A stretch of 64,000 nucleotides of DNA from Acidobacteriota bacterium (GTDB taxonomy: Bacteria > Acidobacteriota > UBA6911). Below the pieces are notes generated by a model. The model saw only the letters and a list, made by a program, of their open reading frames with translations, was not told the origin of the DNA and did not search any database. Positions 3,537 to 44,411 of this stretch are shown piece by piece (position 1 is the first letter of the stretch; each line of letters opens with the position of its first letter). Location: assembly GCA_031271905.1 (NCBI GenBank), contig JAISUT010000025.1, positions 1-64,000 on the forward strand. The letters are read 5' to 3'. A program made the position numbers and the translations under genes.

Positions 3537-4784
3537 ATGGCAAATACGAACGGGAGCATGGGCAGCATGGGGGGAAACACCCAGTACAAGTCGGCGCAGA
3601 TGGGATCGGCGACGGTCGAGCTGGTTTTGGGGGACATCACGGAGCAATGCGTCGACGCCATCGTCAACGCCGCCAACGCACGCCTCGCCGGAGGGGGCGG
3701 GGTGGACGGCGCGGTTCACCGCCGGGGCGGCCCGGCCATCATGGAGGAGACCAGGCAGCGGTATCCCAAGGGCTGCCCGGTCGGCTCCGCCGTCGTGACG
3801 GGCGCGGGCGCCTTGGCGGCGCGATACGTGTTCCACGCCGTCGGCCCGCAGTGGTGCGGCGGCAGGAGCGGCGAGGAGGAGCTGTTGCGCGGCGCCTACC
3901 GCAAGTGCCTGGAGCTCGCCGTGGAGAACCGTTGCGCGAGCATCGCGTTCCCCTCTATAAGCACCGGCGCCTACGGCTACCCGGTCGGCGAAGCCGCCGC
4001 CGTCGCCTTGCAGGCGGTGCGCGACTTCTGCCGCGAGAAGCCCGAGGGCGGCGTCAGGCTCGTCCGCTTCGTGCTGTTCTCCCCCGCGGATTTCGCCGTG
4101 TACGCGGGCGTCCTCGGCAGCGGGGCGGCGGGCGCGGAGCGGAAGTACGTCGGCAAGCCCAAGCCGAACACGATGAGCATCAACATCCTGGCAGACTCCA
4201 GCGGCTCGATGGCAAACATCGCCGAGGACATGTCGGGCTCCCTCAACCAGTTGATGGCGGAAAACAAGGACCTCCCCGCCGAGGTCACCGTCACCTACTC
4301 CATCTTCTCGACCGACTACATGCCGCAGTTCGCCGAGAAGCCGATCGCGGAGGTGCCGCAGTTCCGCATCACGCCGACCAACAGCACGGCGTTGCTGGAG
4401 TCGGCGACGCGGATGATCGAGGAGGTGGACGCGCGCTTCGCGGCGATGCCCGAGCATCCCGAGAAGGTGATGTTCGTCATCGTCACGGACGGGATGGAGA
4501 ACGCCTCGCGCCCCGGCTACACGCGCTCGCGGCTCTTCTCGCTCATCCGGCGGCAGACGGAGGAGCGCAACTGGGTCTTCCTCTACTTCGGGGCGAACCA
4601 GGACGCGATCCAAGAGGCGGCGTCGATGGGGATCCGCCGCGACCGGGCGATGTACTACGAAACAAACGCCCGGGGCGTCCACCGCAACCACGAGCGGCTG
4701 TCCCGCAAGATGGAGCAGTTGCATGAGAGCTCGTTGTCCACACTATGCGATATCGGGTTCGACGCCGAAGACCGCGAGGCGTAG
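3537..4784 (+). CDS. Macro domain - von Willebrand A fusion protein
   Basis: This 415-residue protein has ATG at 3537, nine bases after CGGAGG (3522-3527). Residues about 25-195 form a MacroD-type macro domain with VNAANARLAGGGGVDGAVH, the ADP-ribose-binding loop, and SISTGAYGYPV, the diphosphate loop. Macro domains of this class bind ADP-ribose and often remove it from proteins or nucleic acids. After a short lysine/proline linker, residues about 215-400 form a vWA domain with an intact MIDAS metal site (DSSGS, the STALL threonine, and VTDG). vWA domains of this sort occur in phage and stress proteins. The fusion suggests metal-dependent binding of a partner that presents an ADP-ribosylated target. 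No signal peptide is seen, so it should be cytoplasmic. Assignment of both domains is firm; the biological role is inferred. Confidence 0.85.
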   Translation: MANTNGSMGSMGGNTQYKSAQMGSATVELVLGDITEQCVDAIVNAANARLAGGGGVDGAVHRRGGPAIMEETRQRYPKGCPVGSAVVTGAGALAARYVFHAVGPQWCGGRSGEEELLRGAYRKCLELAVENRCASIAFPSISTGAYGYPVGEAAAVALQAVRDFCREKPEGGVRLVRFVLFSPADFAVYAGVLGSGAAGAERKYVGKPKPNTMSINILADSSGSMANIAEDMSGSLNQLMAENKDLPAEVTVTYSIFSTDYMPQFAEKPIAEVPQFRITPTNSTALLESATRMIEEVDARFAAMPEHPEKVMFVIVTDGMENASRPGYTRSRLFSLIRRQTEERNWVFLYFGANQDAIQEAASMGIRRDRAMYYETNARGVHRNHERLSRKMEQLHESSLSTLCDIGFDAEDREA

Positions 4785-13523: not shown

Positions 13524-14534
13524 ATGAATCTGAGAAAAGCGTTTTTGGACATCATGAAGGGCGAGGATCCGGTCAAGGTCGGCTGGATGGGCTATGGGTT
13601 CGCGCCGTTCCCGCAGAGCATGTTCCACGTCGTGCTGGATCCCATCTCGTTCTGGGACATCCTGCAGTTCTCGGGCGAGGCGGCCATTGACAACTGGGGC
13701 GGCACGATCCGCTACCTGCCGGAGAAGGGCGATCCCGGCGTCATCCCCATCTCCAACGACGAGAACAAGGTGATCAAGGACATGGAGAAATGGCGCGACT
13801 ACGTCCACTTCCCCGAGATCCCGTCGCTTGACTGGACGGAGGCGAAGAAGCAGGCCGACGCCATCGACCGCGAGACGACCTTCGTCATGGTGCCCAGCTT
13901 CCGCGGCCTGTTCGAACGCGCCCACTGCCTGATGCCGTTCGAGGAAGTGCTCACTTCCCTGTACGAATATCCCGACGAGATGGACGAGTTCTTCGCCGCC
14001 TACGCCGAGTGGAAGATCAAGGTGTTCGAGCAGCTCATCGACAACCTCAATCCCGACATCATCCACTCGCACGACGACTGGGGTTCCAGGACCACCCTGT
14101 TTATGAGCCCCGTCAAGTTCCGCGAGCTCCTCAAGCCGCATTACACCAAGATGTACGAGTACATCCACAAGCGCGGCGTGCTGGTGCAGCACCATTCGGA
14201 CACCAACTGCATGGGCATCGAAACCGACATGGTGGACATGGGCATCGACATGTGGCAGGGCGTCATGCCGACCAACGACATCCAGCAGATCAAGAAGAAC
14301 ACCGGCGGCAAGGTGTTGATGATCGGAGGCATCGAGCAGACCCTCATCGACAAGGCGGACGCGACCGAGGATGTCATCCGCGGCGAAGTCCGCCGGGTGA
14401 TCGACGAATACGCCCCGGGCGGCTCGTTCCTCCCCTGCATCCCCAGCTTGGAGTGCATCAACACCCATGTGACCCCCATCGCCATCGACGAGATGAACCG
14501 TTACGGCGCGGAGTGGCTGAAAAAGCAGAAGTAG
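13524..14534 (+). CDS. UroD-family (MtaA/MtbA/O-demethylase-like) methyltransferase
   Basis: This 336-residue protein belongs to the uroporphyrinogen decarboxylase superfamily branch used as corrinoid methyltransferases. It starts at ATG 13524 with GGGAGG upstream. Visible features are the HSHDDWGSRTTLFMSP stretch, the QHHSDTN zinc-ligand region and a late CIPSLECINTH loop. In the cassette it should take a methyl group from an unknown donor (methoxy-aromatic, methylamine or similar) to the corrinoid protein. It lacks the arginines typical of true UroD. A terminator follows directly. The donor cannot be read from sequence; the aryl-CoA genes elsewhere in the window make a methoxylated aromatic attractive, but this is inference. 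Confidence 0.85.
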   Translation: MNLRKAFLDIMKGEDPVKVGWMGYGFAPFPQSMFHVVLDPISFWDILQFSGEAAIDNWGGTIRYLPEKGDPGVIPISNDENKVIKDMEKWRDYVHFPEIPSLDWTEAKKQADAIDRETTFVMVPSFRGLFERAHCLMPFEEVLTSLYEYPDEMDEFFAAYAEWKIKVFEQLIDNLNPDIIHSHDDWGSRTTLFMSPVKFRELLKPHYTKMYEYIHKRGVLVQHHSDTNCMGIETDMVDMGIDMWQGVMPTNDIQQIKKNTGGKVLMIGGIEQTLIDKADATEDVIRGEVRRVIDEYAPGGSFLPCIPSLECINTHVTPIAIDEMNRYGAEWLKKQK

Positions 14535-14563: not shown

Positions 14564-14597
14564 AAGCCGCGGGCGGTCGCCGTCCCGCGGCTTTTTT
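14564..14597 (+). terminator. Rho-independent terminator of the methyltransferase cassette
   Basis: AAGCCGCGGG (14564-14573) pairs with CCCGCGGCTT (14584-14593) around a 10-base loop and runs into a stretch of T. Confidence 0.9.
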
Positions 14598-14600
14598 ATG

Positions 14601-14719
14601 GGAACCTCTGAAAACCTCGCAGACAAGGCGTCTCCGCAGGTCGAAAAGCGGGGTCTGCTGAGGCGAATGGGCATTTTCGACCAAGGCGCGACGCGGCATC
14701 CGGGGTTTTTAGAGGTTCC
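14601..14719. mobile_element. Folded MITE-like repeat, copy 1 (119 bp)
   Basis: A 119-bp element with 14-bp terminal inverted repeats (GGAACCTCTGAAAA and TTTTTAGAGGTTCC, one mismatch). Inside is a second inverted repeat (GGTCGAAAA with TTTTCGACC), so the whole folds on itself. It is flanked by a perfect 6-bp direct repeat TTTATG (14595-14600 and 14720-14725), which looks like a target-site duplication. A second copy of exactly the same length lies inverted at 42461-42579, with about 12 differences by eye. It encodes no protein and would need a transposase in trans. Confidence 0.8.
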
Positions 14720-14779
14720 TTTATGGCAGGGCGCGGCGGGCGCACCGCCCCGAAGGCGGTCGCCGCGCGCGAATCACAG

Positions 14780-15325
14780 ATGACAGAAGGTAGAATAGAA
14801 TATTTGATAAAAGAGGCGCGGGAGGCGGGGTTCGACGCCGCCGGCGGGCTGGATCGCTCCACCGTCGCGCTCTATCCCGACGTGCGCGCGGCGTGCGAGG
14901 TCAACCGTTGCGGGCGTTTCGGCAAGAGCTGGTCGTGCCCGCCCGCCTGCGGGACTTTGGAGGAGTGCGCGGCGCGCCTCGGAAAATATTCCGCCGGCCT
15001 GATCGTCCAGACGGTGGGGCGGCTCGAGGACGAGTTCGACGCCGAGGGGATGGATGCCGCAGGGCGGCGGCACGCGGAGAGTTTCCGCGCGCTTTCCGAA
15101 CGGCTGTGGGGGGAGTTCCCCGACATGCTCCCGGTCGGGACGGCGAGTTGCTCCCTCTGCGGACGGTGCACCTGGCCAGATGCGCCCTGCCGCAACCCGC
15201 GCGGCGCTTTCGCGCCGATGGAGGCTTACGGGATGATGGTTTCGGAGATCTGCCGCCGGAACGGGCTGGACTACTACCACGGCAAGGGCACCATCACCTT
15301 CACCGCCTGCTACTTTCTGGAATAA
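14780..15325 (+). CDS. DUF2284 cysteine-rich metal-binding protein
   Basis: This 181-residue protein has the DUF2284 pattern: CGRFGKSWSCPPACG near residue 45 and CSLCGRCTWPDAPC near residue 125. The clustered cysteines suggest an iron-sulfur or zinc site. Members often sit beside corrinoid methyltransferase or energy-conservation genes in anaerobes, and here it follows such a cassette. ATG 14780 gives the family length but has no clear Shine-Dalgarno. The in-frame ATG at 14723 is preceded at seven bases by AGAGG, which is the end of the MITE-like repeat, so translation might begin there and add 19 Arg/Ala-rich residues. Confidence 0.75.
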   Translation: MTEGRIEYLIKEAREAGFDAAGGLDRSTVALYPDVRAACEVNRCGRFGKSWSCPPACGTLEECAARLGKYSAGLIVQTVGRLEDEFDAEGMDAAGRRHAESFRALSERLWGEFPDMLPVGTASCSLCGRCTWPDAPCRNPRGAFAPMEAYGMMVSEICRRNGLDYYHGKGTITFTACYFLE

Positions 15326-41969: not shown

Positions 41970-42440
41970 TCATCGCCGCCGGTATTTCATGGCGGCTGCG
42001 GCTTCGCGGTCGGCTTCCTTGCGCCGCTCCGTCTCCCGCTTGTCCATGAGCTTCTTGCCGCGCGCCACGCCCAGCTCCACCTTCACGCGCCCGCGTTTGA
42101 AGTAGACGCGCAACGGCGTCAGCGTCAGCCCCTTCTCCTGCGTCTTGCCGATCAGCTTGCGGATCTCCCGCGCGTGCAACAGCAGCTTGCGGGTGCGCGT
42201 GGGCTCGTGGTTTTCGCGGTTGCCGTGCGAGTAGGGGCTGATGTGGCAATTGAACAGCATCGCCTCGCCCTTCTGTATGATGGCGTAGCTGTCCTTGAGG
42301 TTCAGCCGCCCCTCCCGGATGGACTTGACCTCCGTCCCGAGCAGGCACACGCCCGCCTCCAGCTTCTCGAGGATGAAGTAGTCGTGAAACGCCTTTTTAT
42401 TCGTGGCGACGACCTTCTCGCCCGTCGGTTTCTCGGTCAT
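41970..42440 (-). CDS. smpB: SsrA-binding protein SmpB
   Basis: SmpB binds tmRNA and guides it to stalled ribosomes for trans-translation. The 156-residue product has [30 protein letters not shown] and GKKLMDKRE, ending in a basic tail. It starts at ATG 42440. No tmRNA gene is seen in this window. A MITE-like repeat lies immediately upstream. Confidence 0.97.
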
Positions 42441-42460
42441 AGATAGCCCTGTCTTTAAAG

Positions 42461-42579
42461 GGGACCTCTAAAAACCCCGGATGCTGCGTTGCGCCTTGGT
42501 CGAAAATGCTCATTCGCCTTGGTAGGCTCCGCTTTTCGACCTGCGGCGACGCCTTGTCTGCGAGTTTTTTAGAGGTTCC
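42461..42579. mobile_element. Folded MITE-like repeat, copy 2 (119 bp)
   Basis: It has the same 119-bp length as copy 1 at 14601-14719 but opposite orientation, with about 12 mismatches by eye, mostly in the centre. Its ends are GGGACCTCTAAAAA and TTTTTAGAGGTTCC. The flanks, TTTAAAG and CTAAATG, share only TAAA, so a target duplication is imperfect here. The gap from 42580 to 42755 holds nothing else I recognise. Confidence 0.8.
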
Positions 42580-42755
42580 CTAAATGCCTGGGGTGCCGCC
42601 TGCGCCGTCGAGACCTCGCCATCGCATCGTTTGCGTTTCCGGCGACCGAACGGGGGAAGGCTCTCCCGCGACGGTGTTCAAACGAACGACGGCGGGCGGC
42701 GAGGCGGCCGCGCTCCAAGTCGGGAAGGCTGCCACCCCGTTTTTACGCATCCGTG

Positions 42756-44411
42756 TCATTCTTCCGCGGCTTCTTCGGCGACCGCCGCGACCGCCGGAGC
42801 GGGGGCGTTGACTTTGAAGTCCGTCGCGGTGACCAGGCGGTTGTTTGAGATCTTGTCCAAGACGTGGATCTCCAACTTGTAGTCCCCCGGGGCGAGTTGG
42901 CCGACCGGCACCCTGCCGACCAGCACCACGCGCGCCCCGTAGAAGAACTGCTCCGAATTGATGGCGGAATTTTCGACCTCCGCGACGACGTCCCCGCCTT
43001 TTTTGATGACGAACTCCACGTCCAGCGACGGCTGCTGGGTGGTCTGGTCGATCTCCATGCCGTAGATCTGCATGTAGGGGATCAGGTTCTGCCCCGGCAC
43101 ATATGCGGCATTCACGTTCGGCACGATGCGCATGTCCCCGATGACGTACTGGTCGAGGGAGGTGGAGTTCGCCGGCGCGGCGGTGATGGTGTTCGCCAAG
43201 ATGATGCTGCTGGACTGCAATCCGGGGTCGGCGTACTTGGGCACGTTCAACCCCAGGCTCAAGGCGCCGATCTTCTTGCTGTTCACGTCCTTCAGCACGA
43301 GGTCCAACTTGTAGCGTTGCCCCGGGGGGAGCGCCACGATGCGCTGGTACTCCGACTTTTTCTCCTTCCCTTGGTCGAAATAGACGTCGAGGAAGTCGCG
43401 GACGATCTCGTCCTCCCATTCGGCGTGGATCTTGTTGGTCAGCCCGGTGATGATGCCGTACACGTTGATCTTGGCGCGGTTGAAGTCCTTCTCCTTCTTG
43501 AACTCCAGCTCCGTGTTGCTGATCTCGACGGTTATGGGGACCAGCACCTTGTCCTCCGACAGCCGGATGTAGTCGGTGCGCACGTCGTAAAAGAGCGAGC
43601 TGTAGCTGACGTGCGTCGTGACCACGCTCTTCAGATCCTCGAACTTGATCTTGGGCGGGCGCTGCACGCTGAAGTACCGCTCCATCTGCGAGAAGGGCGA
43701 ATCCTTCGTGTTGCGCCCGTACCGGTTCGGGTTGTTGTAGTCGTACCAGCCGCTCGGGTTGAAGTAGACGCGGTCTCGCTTGTCGGCGAGCCCCATTTCT
43801 TCCGCCAAGGTCAACCCCATGCCGGGGACGTTGATCAGCGCGTCCTTCTCCTCCGGGCTCATGGCGAGGCGGTACTCCCCGCTGTTGGAGCTGTCCACGA
43901 ACTCCAGTTCGATGTCATCGCCGACGCCGTCGATGTGCCGGTACCACCAACGCTCGAAGGGGAAGGTGGATGTGGAGCCGCCCCCTTCGTAGGACTGGCG
44001 GTAGTAGATGCCGCCGGTGGGGTGCGTCTCTTTTTGGTCGGGCTCCCCCCAGAGGATGTAGATGCGTCCGCGGTCGGTGCGCCAGCCGGGGATGCCGGAG
44101 GTGAACCGCTCGTTCGCGTAGGCGATGCGGCGGTAATGCTCTTCCTTGAATTCGTTGTACGGGGAGCGGGGGTCGGGGTTGCGGCGATCCCAGAACTGCT
44201 GGATGAAGCTCTCCTTCTCCTCGTCGTTTTTCAAGGACTTGAAGAACGACTTCTCCTCGTCGGAGATGATGTATACGACGTCCTTGTTGAGCCAGTCCTT
44301 GTAATATTGCGCCCCCCCGCCCTCACGCTTCTTTTGGGCGGCGCCGGTCAGGCTGAAGCCTAGGCCTAGGGCGACAAGGGTTAAAACTGCGAAAGACTTT
44401 CGGACGCGCAT
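42756..44411 (-). CDS. Exported GWxTD-domain protein
   Basis: This 551-residue protein has a signal peptide (residues 1-23, cleavage near TGAAQ) starting at ATG 44411 after GGAGAGG. Residues about 30-170 match the GWxTD domain: DWLNKDVVYIIS, FIQQFWDRRNPDP, RIYILWGEPDQ. The rest is beta-rich and ends in a short Ala/Pro/Glu tail. Such proteins are widespread in Acidobacteriota and Bacteroidota and appear to be exported or secreted; the function is unknown. It does not overlap the divergent fumarase gene. Confidence 0.88.
   Translation of the reverse strand: MRVRKSFAVLTLVALGLGFSLTGAAQKKREGGGAQYYKDWLNKDVVYIISDEEKSFFKSLKNDEEKESFIQQFWDRRNPDPRSPYNEFKEEHYRRIAYANERFTSGIPGWRTDRGRIYILWGEPDQKETHPTGGIYYRQSYEGGGSTSTFPFERWWYRHIDGVGDDIELEFVDSSNSGEYRLAMSPEEKDALINVPGMGLTLAEEMGLADKRDRVYFNPSGWYDYNNPNRYGRNTKDSPFSQMERYFSVQRPPKIKFEDLKSVVTTHVSYSSLFYDVRTDYIRLSEDKVLVPITVEISNTELEFKKEKDFNRAKINVYGIITGLTNKIHAEWEDEIVRDFLDVYFDQGKEKKSEYQRIVALPPGQRYKLDLVLKDVNSKKIGALSLGLNVPKYADPGLQSSSIILANTITAAPANSTSLDQYVIGDMRIVPNVNAAYVPGQNLIPYMQIYGMEIDQTTQQPSLDVEFVIKKGGDVVAEVENSAINSEQFFYGARVVLVGRVPVGQLAPGDYKLEIHVLDKISNNRLVTATDFKVNAPAPAVAAVAEEAAEE

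Follow-up and report, generated by a model that had tools for sequence, protein, structure and literature searches.

A miniature inverted-repeat element of an Acidobacteriota genome carries a hairpin core conserved across bacterial phyla

Introduction

MITEPsy1 of P. syringae moves in vivo, a movement ascribed to the IS5-family element ISPsy2, and the accessible text of PMC3189936 gives it a length of 100 nt, no genes, the right tip GTATCCTCTGAAAAAGCC, a 4-nt duplication at CTAG or YTAA, and few copies in P. syringae relatives only. The accessible text of PMC2229807 describes the Correia/NEMIS elements of Neisseria as high-copy MITEs in forms of ~107 and 155 bp that a 50-bp internal piece sets apart, with folded transcripts and TA at their ends, and describes no cross-phylum core for them. 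ERIC sequences of enterobacteria are presented there as intergenic, ~127 bp long and targeted to TA, and their orientation is said to be crucial for their effect on mRNA. REP sequences, according to the accessible part of PMC3733652, are intergenic, 20-40 bp long, tagged by GTAG or CGTC, built on a conserved imperfect hairpin and associated with a tyrosine transposase (RAYT).

The window analysed here, a stretch of 64,000 nucleotides (G000:C42:1-64000), holds two copies of an element that resembles each of these systems in part. It shares with MITEPsy1 the lack of genes, the 4-bp duplication and a similar tip (GGGAACCTCTGAAAA), and unlike MITEPsy1 it is neither low in copy number nor limited to relatives of P. 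syringae. Like Correia/NEMIS it is abundant and occurs in two lengths, 63 and 121 bp, whereas its 4-bp, C-TTAA-G-like target differs from theirs as far as descriptions can be compared. ERIC is similar in length and intergenic position and has other ends, and a 70-base Pseudomonas-type segment of the core described below had no match in 5,426 E. coli genomes. The REP-like feature is the imperfect hairpin, which is here enclosed by inverted tips and a 4-bp duplication.

Results

The two copies have the same length and opposite orientations, as the earlier note had recognized, and differ at 13 of 121 positions, roughly the 12 counted there. The length of 119 bp given at that time requires correction: an outer G/C pair is part of the element and therefore sets the borders listed in Table 1. 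The terminal inverted repeats, whose 19-nt arms are 89% complementary, and the nested inverted repeat (GGTCGAAAA/TTTTCGACC) noted previously are both present, and either strand of both copies folds far beyond shuffled sequence (z -5.8 to -6.9; 0 of 200 shuffles). There is no space in 121 bp for a transposase gene, in agreement with the observation that none is encoded.

Copy 1 begins 65 bp past the URO-D gene, behind the native terminator-like hairpin of that gene, and the first ATG of the adjoining DUF2284 reading frame is formed by the duplication TTAT and a following G, our own gene call favouring a start at 14804. Copy 2 lies within the smpB 5' leader, 19 bp ahead of the smpB ATG. Thus, the statement that both copies sit near gene ends applies to a transcript end for copy 1 only. 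The suggested role as transcript-end structures is not established, as copies across the genome are found in 5' leaders as well as at 3' ends, and a terminator-like hairpin was already in place ahead of copy 1.

Table 1. Positions of the two element copies, their parts and the neighbouring genes in the window.
Feature	Positions	Strand	Remarks
MITE copy 1	14600..14720	+	121 bp; sense relative to both neighbour genes
MITE copy 2	42460..42580	-	121 bp; sense relative to both neighbour genes
Left tip of copy 1, GGGAACCTCTGAAAA	14600..14614	+	
Right tip of copy 1	14706..14720	-	final base mutated C -> T
Left target duplication of copy 1, TTAT	14596..14599	.	length set from 150 copies
Right target duplication of copy 1, TTAT	14721..14724	.	
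Conserved core hairpin of copy 1	14644..14677	+	AAAAGC..GCATTTT, 34 bp
CAAGGCG, direct repeat 1	14624..14630	+	edge of the 58 bp missing in short forms
CAAGGCG, direct repeat 2	14682..14688	+	
Target duplication of copy 2	42456..42459	.	TAAA on plus strand
Target duplication of copy 2	42581..42584	.	TAAA on plus strand
Conserved core hairpin of copy 2	42503..42536	-	
Native terminator-like hairpin and T tract	14564..14598	+	from URO-D gene to copy 1; outside the element
URO-D family gene	13524..14534	+	upstream of copy 1
DUF2284 gene	14723..15325	+	adjoins copy 1
smpB	41970..42440	-	leader contains copy 2
Gene with GWxTD domain	42756..44411	-	upstream of copy 2; start from own gene call

The description of the pair as MITE-like gains support from the rest of the genome, where a covariance model built from 19 copies and run on all 3.40 Mb found at least 150 long copies, of which only two lie in the window; the refuting case named in the earlier note, a genome with just these two, does not apply. 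A search for the 15-base end with up to one mismatch gives 321 matches, compared with 4 for the reversed pattern. When flanks are read from the 121-bp borders, 48 of the 150 long copies have an exact 4-bp duplication (3.1 expected from mispaired flanks), and 93 have one if up to one mismatch is allowed (19.1 expected). An exact 5-bp duplication was found once (0.5 expected), longer ones were not enriched, and neither were 2-bp duplications (8 observed, 9.6 expected), so that a TA-dinucleotide target of the Correia or ERIC kind was not found. The target is C-TTAA-G-like and A+T-rich, with a consensus TTAA within C..G that is more degenerate than YTAR. In the congener G002, 21 of 69 copies have the exact 4-bp duplication (1.3 expected), these being the copies with both flanks among 73 places after duplicate-strand and weaker rows were left out.

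The perfect 6-bp duplication TTTATG previously read at copy 1 is therefore the 4-bp TTAT, which extends to six letters by coincidence because the last C of the element became T. A 6-bp duplication was rejected for the family as well: at 119-bp borders it is exact in 9 of 150 copies, and only 2 of the 29 exact-4 copies without the outer C extend. Copy 2, for which the earlier note gave no duplication, has a perfect TTTA. With terminal inverted repeats, a fixed duplication, a short non-coding body and many copies, it is nearly certain that the element is a MITE.

The copies have a mean pairwise identity of 0.83 and no two are identical, from which we conclude that they are old. Because their lengths differ by 1-3 bp, a small reading frame starting at the core ATG was dropped as a candidate. 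Within 626 kb of the genome we found 35 short forms of 62-66 bp. They lack the centre as part of a 58-bp stretch whose edges carry the direct repeat CAAGGCG, and could therefore be either products of a deletion or the precursor. Of 38 genomes from the class, this one and G002 alone have the ends in number (the G002 elements match copy 1 at 69-74%), and single tip matches in five other genomes were discarded since no element surrounds them.

Several individual loci stand out. Solitary 15-bp tips without a partner (C6:16564 in L084 and C39:279 in L115 of this genome; L073, L081 and L095 in G002) are probably remnants. At G000:C5:14400-15062 (within L082) two long copies lie 420 bp apart between matching outer 4-bp flanks (TTGA), which would fit joint movement of the pair as a composite element. 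At G000:C64:133521-133641 (L060) a copy sits inside the left tip of another, with the duplication TTAG. Left and right element halves at C19:15785 and C19:20387 (L101) are 4.6 kb apart, with reading frames between them that resemble thrS and infC, and represent either a split element or two remnants by chance. Near positions 36140-36300 of C67 a sequence that by eye resembles tRNA-Leu lies between two copies 160 bp apart.

The centre of the element is not local to this genome. A degenerate core pattern (AAAAGCGGRGTTYRC-N2-8-GYRAATGRG), with a chance expectation of ~1 (about 0.8, from 21 informative bases at uniform composition), matched at least 118 stretches of public genomes in the GTDB collection, 80 of which were listed. 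Among the matches listed, carriers include Pseudomonas, Halomonas and relatives, Nitrosomonadales, Mariprofundales, Alistipes, Tannerellaceae, Prevotellaceae, Lentimicrobiaceae and others, as well as single metagenome contigs labelled Acidobacteriota and Oligoflexia. The pattern requires an exact core and so overstates its overall conservation, an effect that leaves the free positions untouched: in the 74 of 84 matches used for flank analysis (10 lay too near a locus edge), the six degenerate pattern positions are fixed in 72-74, and CATTTT, the six bases that directly follow the pattern and are not specified by it, is kept in 67-72. Of the 74, 47 have AAGGC upstream and 59 have AACG downstream (6 and 12, respectively, after shuffling). 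The hairpin core is thus conserved across phyla.

The core also travels within elements of the same build. Inverted tips surround it at 68 of the 72 loci with long flanks (from 84 matches), and an exact 4-bp duplication is present at 23 of these 68, compared with 1 of 72 when the right flank was taken from another locus. The tips vary more than the core, and in Pseudomonas CAGGCCGTTGAAAAACG, GGAGCCTCTGAAAAACG and GGCCACTTTTAAAAACG each precede similar inner sequence. Only 1 of 58 copies in this wider family lies inside a gene. For five of six Pseudomonas insertions, whose joined flanks were searched in 14 genomes, at least one relative has an uninterrupted site, including L283 (empty in five genomes at 91-96%) and L291 (empty in four), where the filled site CTAG, 140 bp, CTAA corresponds to a single CTAA in L428 and L429. 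For the sixth, L294, two other genomes carry the insertion at the corresponding position, and no empty site is among the matches listed from those 14 genomes. On one Mariprofundales contig (L349) two cores, at 3910 and 4019, are arranged in tandem 109 bp apart.

Rfam scans of the copy 1 region gave sub-threshold matches only, none overlapping the element, and the 8 core loci scanned, out of 80, matched no family. The 70-base Pseudomonas-type segment had no match in phage records and matched 17 plasmid records at E 0.1, mostly from Pseudomonas. Text searches, among them ones for the strings gcggagtttac and gtaaatgagcatttt, brought up no description of the core in the titles and abstracts listed, a search that reaches neither sequences printed in figures nor subscription journals, and the hairpin is absent from the searched text of PMC2229807, PMC10969869 and PMC3733652.

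We aligned 37 diverse sequences (35 of the 80 core loci, chosen for diversity, and the two window copies) and found that the core forms an imperfect hairpin, AAAAGC-GGA-GUUUAC..GUAAAU-GA-GC-A-UUUU. Its two inner helices are paired in 98% of cells and hardly vary. In the outer ten-pair helix, every pair shows changes on both sides (105 cells, compared with 42.3 in shuffles), and the covariation score of 0.50 (0.18 shuffled) is best at the true register, although a slide of one column keeps 0.40. The helices are separated by three features that scarcely change: a GGA/GA internal loop, a bulged A and a G.U pair. As a duplex site would not need such mismatches, their near invariance points to a folded single strand. 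The presence of this hairpin, little altered, in similar elements of bacteria as distant as Pseudomonas and gut Bacteroidota suggests that the hairpin itself does something.

The plus strand carries the purine loops, and folds more stably as RNA than the minus strand in 122 of 150 copies of this genome, 67 of 69 in G002 and 64 of the 66 folded among 68 in the wider family, counts that come from copies of shared ancestry and are not independent tests. DNA parameters give the same asymmetry (63 of 66 wider-family copies), and thus readings as RNA and as DNA are inseparable on this basis. Within this genome covariation is modest and may follow subfamilies. Single-arm changes there yield ~358 G.U and ~301 A.C cells (pairs 5-117, 18-104 and 54-69, where the consensus itself is G.T, being left out), a near symmetry that indicates no wobble tolerance and speaks against selected RNA pairing in this genome. 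Subfamily positions apart, the interior columns differ from the consensus by about 2-6% and the tips by 6-20%, and copies with a decayed duplication or decayed tips show no significant increase in interior divergence (Spearman 0.06 and 0.12). The low interior divergence hints at constraint after insertion, or at gene conversion, and carries little weight as the search model favours intact interiors.

In this genome the copies are strongly oriented relative to genes. Our own calls of 612 genes in 626 kb place 122 copies in tandem gaps, of which 100 point in the direction of the genes (82 of 103 long, 18 of 19 short; binomial p 4.5e-13, a fair guide because each copy is a separate insertion), and the bias persists when stratified by contig (odds ratio 18.5, p 9.5e-6), which rules out replication direction as its cause. 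An asymmetry of the target sequence was also rejected, as base preference predicts a sense/antisense ratio of 0.89-1.15. The bias reaches 33:3 where a start lies within 40 bp downstream, is 51:15 in long gaps, and it is the same for copies with intact and decayed duplications (36:7 and 85:19). Of the 100 sense copies in tandem gaps, 45 begin at most 20 bp past a stop codon. In divergent gaps 21 of 25 copies are sense to the nearest gene, and sense copies there also lie in 5' leaders, 16-60 bp ahead of start codons. Convergent gaps show no bias (16 of 27), which is neutral towards a role in termination, since both strands end in U5. Orientation in G002 is 24:10 (p 0.024, weak), and the wider core family shows no bias (22:16). 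The orientation bias is therefore a trait of this genus, most pronounced in this genome, and does not extend to the family at large.

The transposase with matching terminal repeats that the earlier note had hoped to find was not recovered from this genome by searches for PF01609 (one fragment without ends) and PF05598 (none). Partner transposases are often lost in MITE families. PF01609 proteins of this genome and G002 were rejected as drivers because their ends do not match. One of them, encoded on the same contig as a G002 element copy (G002:C313, L063), is a transposase-like reading frame, presumably IS1380-like, with a different inverted repeat, TAGTCCTAAA. A PF05598 search of ten genomes identified, in two Pseudomonas genomes, an IS5-family element of ~1.19 kb with an open frame of 326 residues, whose left ends (GGGAAACTCTGAAGAAG in L407, AGGAAACTCTGAAAAAG in L406) resemble the window tip; the core is absent from the first 37 bases of these elements, which are the bases compared. 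Given these tips and the precedent of MITEPsy1 and ISPsy2, a driver of IS5 type is the best inference and is likely.

Discussion

We consider it probable, at about 0.65, that the element is a MITE moved by an IS5-type transposase, that it represents a single branch of a larger family found in several bacterial groups, with differing tips and an almost invariant centre, and that its core is read as a folded single strand. An IS5-family transposase would move the element in trans by cut-and-paste, recognizing the tips (GGGAACCTCTRAAAA) and duplicating 4 bp of A+T-rich target; in this genome the copies are old, and the PF01609 and PF05598 searches gave no driver. The core would be recognized as a folded single strand, either as RNA in transcripts or as DNA during transposition, and such recognition, the most likely function and our best reading of the core, would explain why the mismatches are kept. 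Copies that place the minus strand into a transcript may have been lost, or never gained, in this genome.

More tentatively, and with somewhat less than even confidence, we suggest that the core is an old, undescribed hairpin module ranging from Pseudomonadota to Bacteroidota and this genus, read as a folded single strand by a widely conserved factor and carried on exchangeable, transposase-specific tips, of which well over 100 copies here have become parts of sense-strand transcripts.

It is unlikely, if still a serious alternative, that this is an ordinary IS5-type MITE without function, its centre inherited from one horizontally spread parent and its orientation bias left by the loss of insertions that disturb genes. 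MITE anatomy and duplications fit such an origin, as do a core that Rfam scans assign to no known function or family, the unbiased orientation of the wider family, and a bias equally strong beside intact and decayed duplications. However, the stem sequence has fully diverged and still pairs, while the core sequence has stayed constant, for which recent spread alone is insufficient, and the tips, which a transposase needs, vary more than the core.

Somewhat less probable again is that the copies serve mainly as intrinsic transcription terminators or as stabilizers of mRNA 3' ends, the plus strand providing a GC-rich stem followed by UUUUU. The sense bias and the many sense copies that closely follow a stop codon agree with this, as does a C.A mismatch at the stem base of the minus strand that the plus strand does not have. 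Yet sense copies also occupy 5' leaders, including that of smpB (copy 2), a place where termination should do harm, and copy 1 stands behind a native terminator-like hairpin.

Single-strand transposases (HUH, RAYT-like) read a conserved mismatched hairpin on one strand, and HUH transposition leaves no 4-bp duplication. That the core is the substrate of such an enzyme, as for REP, with the IS5-like tips secondary, would suit its mismatched hairpin but is very improbable, as the element leaves a 4-bp duplication when it moves, its consensus has no GTAG tag, 587 kb around 80 core loci contain no HUH-motif reading frame, and the only such frame in all stretches examined (L411) has no core beside it.

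A MITE is usually recognized by its ends, and its middle counts as disposable, whereas here the ends have been exchanged between lineages and the middle is nearly invariant across phyla. The orientation bias makes the effect of the copies on transcripts directly testable. Additionally, the invariant core and the covarying stem point to a reader of the hairpin, and the core itself is a probe with which that reader may be found.
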